Assembly: GCA_028714255.1 (NCBI GenBank)
Contig: JAQTMR010000013.1
Location: 1 to 58,431 of the forward strand
From: Phycisphaerae bacterium
GTDB taxonomy: Bacteria > Planctomycetota > Phycisphaerae > Sedimentisphaerales > Anaerobacaceae
DNA: 58,431 nt
Direction: 5' to 3'
This document shows, piece after piece, positions 39,824-40,643 of this stretch (positions within the stretch are counted from its first letter, which is position 1; the number at the start of each line of letters is the position of its first letter). The notes beneath the pieces are model-generated. The model made no database searches, was not told where the DNA came from, and saw only the letters and a list, made by a program, of their open reading frames with translations. The translations under genes were made by a program, and so were the position numbers.

Positions 39824-39899
39824 AATCGGGGCGACAGGATACGCAGTATGGCTGAGCCACTCGAACCTGCGACCCGCCCCAAGGGCTGCGCTAGCCAAA
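39824..39899 (-). pseudogene. Degenerate tRNA-Pro copy with 20-base insertion, D-loop to 3' end only
   Basis: Read on the minus strand, TTTGGCTAGCGC matches the D-loop of the tRNA-Pro at 40173-40247, and TCGCAGGTTCGAG and TCCTGTCGCCCCGATT match its T arm and 3' end. The 5' acceptor strand is missing because the GIY-YIG stop codon stands there. The anticodon arm is replaced by an 11-base hairpin (GCCC-TTG-GGGC), and 20 bases (39840-39859) split the T loop. It cannot act as a tRNA. It shares the altered anticodon arm with the tandem copies at 40248-40574. Confidence 0.8.
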
Positions 39900-40169
39900 T
39901 CATACTATATCGGTCAAAGGTTTGTCGCCGGCAAGTCTTTTCTTCTCAGAGGCGCCGGCATGTGACTTGAGAAAAAGCTCACGTCTGACAGCTTGGGTAC
40001 GGCTTGAATATACTTCAAAATGGACTAAGTCCCACGGACCTCGTGCAGAAGTATATGTCTTTTTCCCGGGACTATTATGTTGGCATATTCGACGAGCCAG
40101 ATTATTGGTATGACCAATATAAAGGCTTTCGCCTTTACATGAACGCAGAATATAAACATAAAACTGCAT
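39900..40169 (-). CDS. GIY-YIG endonuclease-domain protein directly after tRNA-Pro
   Basis: An 89-residue single-domain protein of the small GIY-YIG (UPF0213/YhbQ-like) group: FYVYILRSCKGESLYIGHTN at the N-terminus, the arginine in NLARRICQHN, and the candidate catalytic glutamate in RRELFLKSHAG. The chosen ATG (40167-40169) is only 3 bases past the tRNA-Pro discriminator base and has no ribosome binding site. The frame is open further upstream, but there it only translates the tRNA (GSQVRVLSPR), so that part is not protein. The stop codon abuts the degenerate tRNA copy at 39824-39899. The gene is thus bracketed by tRNA-Pro sequences in direct orientation. Confidence 0.85.
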   Translation of the reverse strand: MQFYVYILRSCKGESLYIGHTNNLARRICQHNSPGKKTYTSARGPWDLVHFEVYSSRTQAVRRELFLKSHAGASEKKRLAGDKPLTDIV

Positions 40170-40172
40170 CAA

Positions 40173-40247
40173 TCGGGGCGACAGGACTCGAACCTGCGAC
40201 CCCTTGCACCCCATGCAAGTGCGCTAGCCAAACTGCGCCACGCCCCG
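40173..40247 (-). tRNA. tRNA-Pro (anticodon GGG)
   Basis: A 75-base cloverleaf on the minus strand: acceptor stem CGGGGCG/CGCCCCG with discriminator A, anticodon stem CTTGC/GCAAG around the loop ATGGGGT (anticodon GGG), T arm GCAGG-TTCGAGT-CCTGT. CCA is not encoded. It is the only intact member of a cluster of related sequences, followed at once by the GIY-YIG gene and preceded by three tandem degenerate copies. Confidence 0.95.
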
Positions 40248-40574
40248 AAATTATTTCAATTTCACAACAACTATAAAGCGGGCTTCAGCCAAGGTGGAAT
40301 CCTTGAGCCTGCGACCCGCCCCAGGGGCTGCGCTAGCCAAACTGCGCCACGCCCCGAAATTATTTCAATTTCACGACAACTATAAAGCGGGCTTCAGCCA
40401 AGGTGGAATCCTTGAACCTGCGACCCGCCCCAAGGGCTGCGCTAGCCAAACTGCGCCACGCCCCGAAATTATTTCAATTTCACGACAACTATAAACCGGG
40501 CTTCAGCCAAGGTGGAATCCTTGAACCTGCGACCCGCCCCAAGGGCTGCGCTAGCCAAACTGCGCCACGCCCCG
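40248..40574 (-). repeat. Three tandem 109-bp units, each with a degenerate tRNA-Pro
   Basis: CGCCCCG at 40241, 40350, 40459 and 40568 recurs at exactly 109 bases, giving three nearly identical units (327 bases). On the minus strand each unit has the tRNA-Pro 5' acceptor strand, D arm and TCGCAGGTTC of the T arm, but the anticodon arm is reduced to the hairpin GCCC-(T/C)TG-GGGC. The T arm then runs into a different inverted repeat (AAGG-ATTCCA-CCTT). The rest, TTATAGTTGTCGTGAAATTG and following, is unrelated to tRNA. None can decode. Differences among the units are few, so the array is recent or homogenised. Confidence 0.88.
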
Positions 40575-40643
40575 TATAAACACTGCTATTTTAACACAAA
40601 TAGAGGGATTTTCAAATATATAACTGAAAATATCCTTAGGTGT

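Follow-up and report, generated by a model that had tools for sequence, protein, structure and literature searches.

Transfer RNA genes are classic docking sites of mobile DNA and are known in this role mainly for integrase elements and introns. The nearest system in the literature to the locus examined here is SegB of phages T4 and T6. This GIY-YIG homing endonuclease is encoded as a free-standing gene in the tRNA region of the phage; it cuts within tRNA sequences, and a tRNA segment amplified in tandem has been associated with it (PMC13096335). Homing endonucleases have been placed in the UvrC lineage of GIY-YIG proteins, which is paralogous to the UPF0213/SLX1 lineage, and for UPF0213 and SLX1-like proteins a role in repair or RNA metabolism has been predicted (PMC1564403). 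Here we describe a locus at which a small nuclease gene of the latter type sits beside a tRNA gene, between altered copies of that same tRNA. We read the locus, at a probability of roughly 0.6, as a minimal mobile (selfish) element whose sole gene encodes a UPF0213/SLX1-type GIY-YIG nuclease, whose ends are hairpin-marked tRNA pseudo-copies, and which leaves one working tRNA.

Organization of the tRNA-Pro(GGG) locus

The window, i.e. the whole 58,431-nt stretch of DNA that was analysed, is contig C13 of a 2.41-Mb genome (G000). On its minus strand, three tandem 109-nt tRNA-Pro-like units are followed by an intact tRNA-Pro(GGG), an 89-aa GIY-YIG gene and a fourth tRNA-Pro-like piece:

40575..40640, minus strand: original tRNA-Pro promoter/leader, common to the empty sites of G001, G002 and G029 (alignment with L039, L041 and L038)
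40497..40574, minus strand: pseudo-tRNA-Pro copy 1, with the 5' 28 nt of the tRNA, a hairpin at 40546-40536 replacing the anticodon arm, and an altered T arm
40388..40465, minus strand: pseudo-tRNA-Pro copy 2, hairpin at 40437-40427
40279..40356, minus strand: pseudo-tRNA-Pro copy 3, hairpin GCCCCTGGGGC at 40328-40318
40172..40248, minus strand: intact tRNA-Pro(GGG) (ARAGORN; Rfam RF00005, 57.5 bits)
39900..40169, minus strand: GIY-YIG nuclease gene, 89 aa, single domain (Pfam PF01541, E 4.5e-19; stop codon TGA at 39902-39900)
39824..39899, minus strand: 3' pseudo-tRNA-Pro piece, from D loop to 3' end, with a hairpin at 39886-39876 and a ~20-nt T-arm insertion at 39858-39839

The intact tRNA-Pro(GGG) is the sole GGG copy that a DNA search found in its own genome. 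The conserved start of the nuclease is the ATG at 40169, 3 nt past the tRNA, and the start of a 104-aa ORF falls within the tRNA. The three upstream units, starting at 40574, 40465 and 40356, each hold the first 28 nt of tRNA-Pro followed by a hairpin, and look like a later tandem amplification. In 4/4 tRNA-Pro-like pieces the 17-nt anticodon arm CTTGCATGGGGTGCAAG has been exchanged for an 11-nt hairpin (GCCC-TTG-GGGC), whose letters in the tandem units are GCCCTTGGGGC and once GCCCCTGGGGC. A pattern search of the own genome for hairpin-bearing tRNA-Pro copies gave four matches, all confined to this locus, whereas the reversed-pattern control gave 0, indicating that the arrangement in the window is beyond chance.

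The first-pass annotation of this DNA had described an intact tRNA-Pro, a GIY-YIG ORF beginning 3 bases after it and a tRNA-Pro fragment at the stop codon of the ORF, and the layout bears it out, the fragment (39899-39824) lying directly behind the stop. The 16-base repeat that it had pointed to is exact at 39824-39839 and 40171-40186, but is merely the shared 3' end of the tRNA. Likewise, the displaced 3' part of a tRNA is present, but is not plain, as it carries the 11-nt hairpin for an anticodon arm and the T-arm insertion. The picture of a tRNA rebuilt with its old part pushed aside fits the locus; the hairpin swap and the upstream pseudo-copies had not been foreseen.

Empty and occupied sites in related genomes

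An intact, single tRNA-Pro(GGG) with neither a GIY-YIG ORF nor extra copies is found in two genomes of the same genus as the window (G001 and G002) and in G029, so that the empty sites sought after the first pass exist, with one intact tRNA and no fragment. The gene upstream of the window locus is common to G001 and G002, and the promoter to all three genomes. The left flank of the window locus aligns with these empty sites through the promoter and 28 nt of the tRNA, and the alignment breaks exactly at the hairpin. Since the 75-nt tRNA is 100% identical among the window, G001 and G029, one functional-looking tRNA has been kept.

The nearest paralogue of the nuclease in the own genome (54%) lies at tRNA-Pro(CGG) behind priA, where the order is pseudo 5' half (hairpin TCCCTTGGGGA), nuclease gene, intact tRNA. 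Across relatives this site is empty in 16 genomes, occupied in 11 (eight from the comparison of relatives and three from the family search) and a remnant in 2. The distance from the priA stop to the tRNA is 38-48 nt at the 16 empty sites, both same-genus genomes included, and 419-530 nt at those occupied sites that were measured, with the pseudo 5' half and the GIY-YIG gene in between. G027 (contig C347 near 1749) carries a scar, a pseudo-tRNA without the GIY-YIG gene, and G034 (contig C7 near 12000) a 3' remnant of the nuclease gene. On the PriA tree 5 occupancy changes are required, and the occupied G000 and the empty G001 are sisters at 100/97.

Together these results show repeated gain and/or loss at the tRNA-Pro(CGG) site; the several changes may be gains, or else an old insertion may have been lost more than once. 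The identities of the nuclease and of PriA correlate moderately (r 0.55), so that site states alone do not prove horizontal movement, and the branching of the nuclease tree of this clade does not resolve, so that transfer between hosts is not proven by it either. The Pro nuclease clade is also found at tRNA-Pro(TGG) (L211). At orthologous single-copy tRNA genes the element is found in some genomes and missing from others, and occupied sites hold one intact tRNA together with pseudo-copies in which a hairpin, commonly of the TCC...GGA type, stands for the anticodon stem-loop.

Recurrence beside other RNA genes and in other phyla

GIY-YIG genes were surveyed in 61 relatives, through a family search and in other phyla, giving 185 loci; the query for scanning genome contigs was one consensus-like Pro-clade protein. 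Of the tRNA and tmRNA genes lying <=150 nt from these 185 genes, 92 are on the same strand and 1, the convergent tRNA-Arg of the window, is on the opposite strand; the density of such genes drops more than tenfold past 300 nt. The search for small GIY-YIG ORFs close to tRNA genes, which the first-pass annotation had proposed, has returned dozens of same-strand loci. The RNA genes concerned are those for Pro, Asn, Ser, Leu, Gly, His, Ala, Glu, Val, Thr, Trp and Asp tRNAs and tmRNA, and the nuclease gene lies before the intact tRNA at some sites and after it at others. The closest named relatives of the tRNA-Pro nuclease clade are from Sedimentisphaerales/Phycisphaerae (Planctomycetota).

Hairpin-swapped pseudo-tRNAs, some of them complete, were found at Pro, Asn (six hairpin sequences), Ser (L254, Chitinophagaceae), Asp (L277, Algoriphagus), Thr, Tyr and Val (L263) genes. 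In one locus of Candidatus Magasanikbacteria (L257), a pseudo-tRNA-Thr and a copy of tRNA-Tyr each have, in the anticodon, a hairpin resembling extragenic palindromes. The swapped hairpins commonly start with TCC and end with GGA around a variable stem. Within the Pro set, U-A at the outer pair is replaced by G-C through a compensatory change of both bases, and 100% of cells are paired. The pseudo 5' half tracks the tRNA of its own host (0.6 vs 2.4 mismatches in 28 nt), a pattern that agrees with gene conversion or with the target's own half having stayed in place. Pattern searches for the pseudo-tRNA as a dispersed repeat found it at the element locus only, the scar in G027 excepted. Three pseudo-tRNAs exceed the Rfam tRNA gathering score (L011 1927-1995, L254 569-664 and L028 1169-1251), and such sequences may therefore be annotated as tRNAs.

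Among 46 internal fragment ends in 22 groups, 10 fall <=2 nt from the middle anticodon base where 3.4 are expected (p 0.0017, unselected count). For the whole anticodon arm the excess is weak (19 vs 13.6 expected, p 0.06), and other internal ends lie in the D and T loops. Beside tmRNA, the GIY-YIG gene stands 56-207 nt downstream on the same strand in twelve loci (L004, L024, L026, L084, L086, L087, L099, L119, L121, L226, L266 and L293); no tmRNA fragments were found near these, bar one weak match in L293, and fragments of RNA genes are likewise absent at many other GIY-YIG loci.

Sister nuclease clades and extragenic palindromes

Sister GIY-YIG clades in the same genomes have no tRNA beside them; their flanks carry palindromes, for instance TGTCATTCCTGCGAAAGCAGGAATCC or GATTGCTTCGC...GCTCGCAATGAC (loci L005, L007, L008, L080 and L108). 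For the palindrome of the TGTCATTCCTGCGAAAGCAGGAATCC type, REP1, a pattern search of the own genome gave 83 matches, against 0 for the control. When the genomic context was mapped on the GIY-YIG tree, 21 changes were needed vs 48.7 with shuffled labels, and tRNA identity alone needed 33 vs 61.9, a clustering to which near-copies and shared loci add. These results show that the nuclease clades follow the adjoining RNA gene or palindrome.

The dispersed palindrome family ATTCCTGCG...GCAGGAAT (83 pattern matches, control 0) flanks two other GIY-YIG genes of G000, at C1:323476-323869 and C3:49560-49942, and has four matches in the window, at 1193, 25800, 32859 and 35865. Two further GIY-YIG ORFs, in L022 and L020, lie within near-perfect 13-15 bp inverted repeats (CCCCGCACCTTCC/GGAAGGTGCGGGG and CCCTCACACCAATGG/CCATTGGTGTGAGGG).

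The nuclease belongs to the UPF0213/SLX1-like lineage

The 89-aa protein is a single GIY-YIG domain (PF01541, 69 bits), and its residues V5-Y6, Y17-x-G19, R26/R27 and E52/E64, invariant in 14 homologues, are those of the superfamily, with its GIY and YIG motifs, following Arg and C-terminal Glu. The nearest solved structures by sequence are 1zg2 (E 2.3e-16), 1ywl (1.9e-14) and SLX1 (1.9e-7). The predicted structure has a pLDDT of 84.6, and Foldseek ranked 1zg2 and Slx1 at the top, with UvrC only at E 1.0. Profile, fold and the single small domain thus place the protein in the UPF0213/SLX1-like lineage, and the nearest structures, UPF0213 and SLX1, set it apart from the UvrC/HEase lineage (I-TevI/SegB type). 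Because homing endonucleases belong to the UvrC lineage (PMC1564403), the protein is not to be filed as an I-TevI-type homing endonuclease; the nuclease of a homing-type superfamily named on the first pass is of the UPF0213/SLX1 lineage and not of the I-TevI one. The protein may work like a homing endonuclease, an enzyme that cleaves the unoccupied allele and promotes the copying of its own gene.

A proposed mechanism

Gain and/or loss of the element is shown at the sites compared; cleavage and transposition are what we infer. The nuclease would open a tRNA gene at its anticodon arm, or where the gene folds into a cruciform or, as a single strand, into a cloverleaf, and the element would be copied in by repair. 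Since the element would carry the missing tRNA half, the host would keep one working tRNA, and the old half would be left as a pseudo-tRNA. The carried half would include the promoter in the Pro-CGG type and lack it in the Asn type. Two product orders would then arise, pseudo 5' half - nuclease - intact tRNA (Pro-CGG) and intact tRNA - nuclease - pseudo 3' half (Asn, L238 and the right end of the window element). The hairpin would be the element's own end and would keep the pseudo-copy from being recognised as a target anew. SLX1 is a branched-DNA nuclease, and by analogy such an action would suit a target able to form a cruciform or cloverleaf.

Alternative explanations

The dispersed palindromes flanking the other GIY-YIG clades of these genomes, the 83 matches of REP1 against none in the control, and the mapping of nuclease clades to palindrome type would all agree with a REP-type system, in which the palindrome is the primary unit and the GIY-YIG protein its partner nuclease (cf. 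RAYT), the tRNA arms being natural palindromes that are also acted on and the selfish spread of the gene being secondary. We consider this unlikely for the locus in the window, as the pseudo-tRNAs are limited to the element locus, the sampled palindromes and the tRNA-arm hairpins have different sequences, and RAYT is of an unrelated nuclease class. An RNA-level module appears more doubtful still: here the pseudo-tRNA would have a function as RNA, whether as decoy, leader or guide, and the protein, expressed from a tRNA promoter, would be a toxin-like or tRNA-processing nuclease acting on tRNA or mRNA. The shared strand in 92/93 cases, the close match of the pseudo-tRNA body to the host tRNA, the hairpin covariation and the three upstream pseudo-copies in the window speak for such a module. 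Sporadic presence, remnants and partial pseudo-copies speak against it, as do nuclease relatives at REP palindromes without a tRNA and the folding of the window pseudo-copy, which is no better than that of shuffled sequences (z -0.6).

After the entry of an integrating element a tRNA is commonly present once in full and once in part (PMC9897764), and the locus could on that ground be taken for ordinary tRNA duplication and decay, or for what an integrase-type island left behind, the GIY-YIG gene trapped between the copies being unrelated. This is very improbable, given that no integrase lies between the tRNA copies of the window locus, that the inserts span only a few hundred bp, and that, across several phyla, this gene family is met again beside many tRNA types together with the same exchange of the anticodon arm for a hairpin. 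The fragment, with its hairpin swap and T-arm insertion, is also not the plain 3' duplication of an integrase-type tRNA island.

Other assignments were tried and rejected. A Rfam scan for a group I intron in the tRNA gave tRNAs only. As phage cargo the gene has distant phage relatives (best 46%), and none in viral contigs. It encodes a GIY-YIG protein rather than the Y1 (HUH) transposase of REP/RAYT systems, and the dispersed palindromes of such systems are seen with the REP1-associated sister clade, whereas the pseudo-tRNA hairpins occur in the element only.

The minimal mobile element agrees with the earlier interpretation as a tRNA-targeting selfish element or tRNA-linked mobile cassette, which is supported, its mobility being presumed. 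A broader reading, to which we give somewhat less than even odds, is a new cross-phylum class of single-gene elements: SLX1/UPF0213-type structure-specific nucleases would find their hairpin targets in tRNA arms and, for the sister clades, in extragenic palindromes. They would enter specific tRNA genes at the anticodon arm and rebuild the tRNA from the carried half, the leftover copy being protected by its hairpin from re-cutting. In 5.39 million open papers we found neither such elements described nor one paper in which GIY-YIG and repetitive extragenic palindromic occur together; the search covered open papers only, and novelty is therefore provisional. If the reading is true, few known mobile elements would be smaller than this single-domain nuclease of ~90 residues, which would colonise single-copy tRNA genes of several phyla and leave hairpin-marked dummy tRNAs behind. 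It would also give the large uncharacterised UPF0213 group a role, link GIY-YIG nucleases to extragenic palindromes, and explain tRNA-like pseudogenes able to pass standard tRNA models.

Comparison with known systems

SegB resembles the window element in being a GIY-YIG nuclease beside tRNA genes, but is a phage enzyme, whereas the protein examined here consists of one domain of 89 aa and is nearest UPF0213/SLX1; we found no hairpin-swapped pseudo-tRNAs described for SegB (PMC13096335). Insertion of integrative elements at tRNA genes (islands, ICEs and prophages) likewise results in a complete tRNA and a partial one. In contrast to them, the window element is a few hundred bp long without an integrase, bears an anticodon-arm hairpin in its pseudo-copies and may lie before or after the intact tRNA. 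Group I introns with GIY-YIG endonucleases also have the tRNA anticodon region as target, whereas Rfam gave no group I intron match here and the tRNA is intact outside the insert. REP/RAYT systems share one small gene, short flanking palindromes and clade-specific pairing; their nuclease (Y1) is unrelated, and the palindromes of the element lie inside pseudo-tRNAs rather than dispersed. For UPF0213 and bacterial SLX1-like proteins (1ZG2, 1YWL) we found neither tRNA association nor mobility described, but they have the same fold and size as the window protein and are its best match in both sequence and structure.
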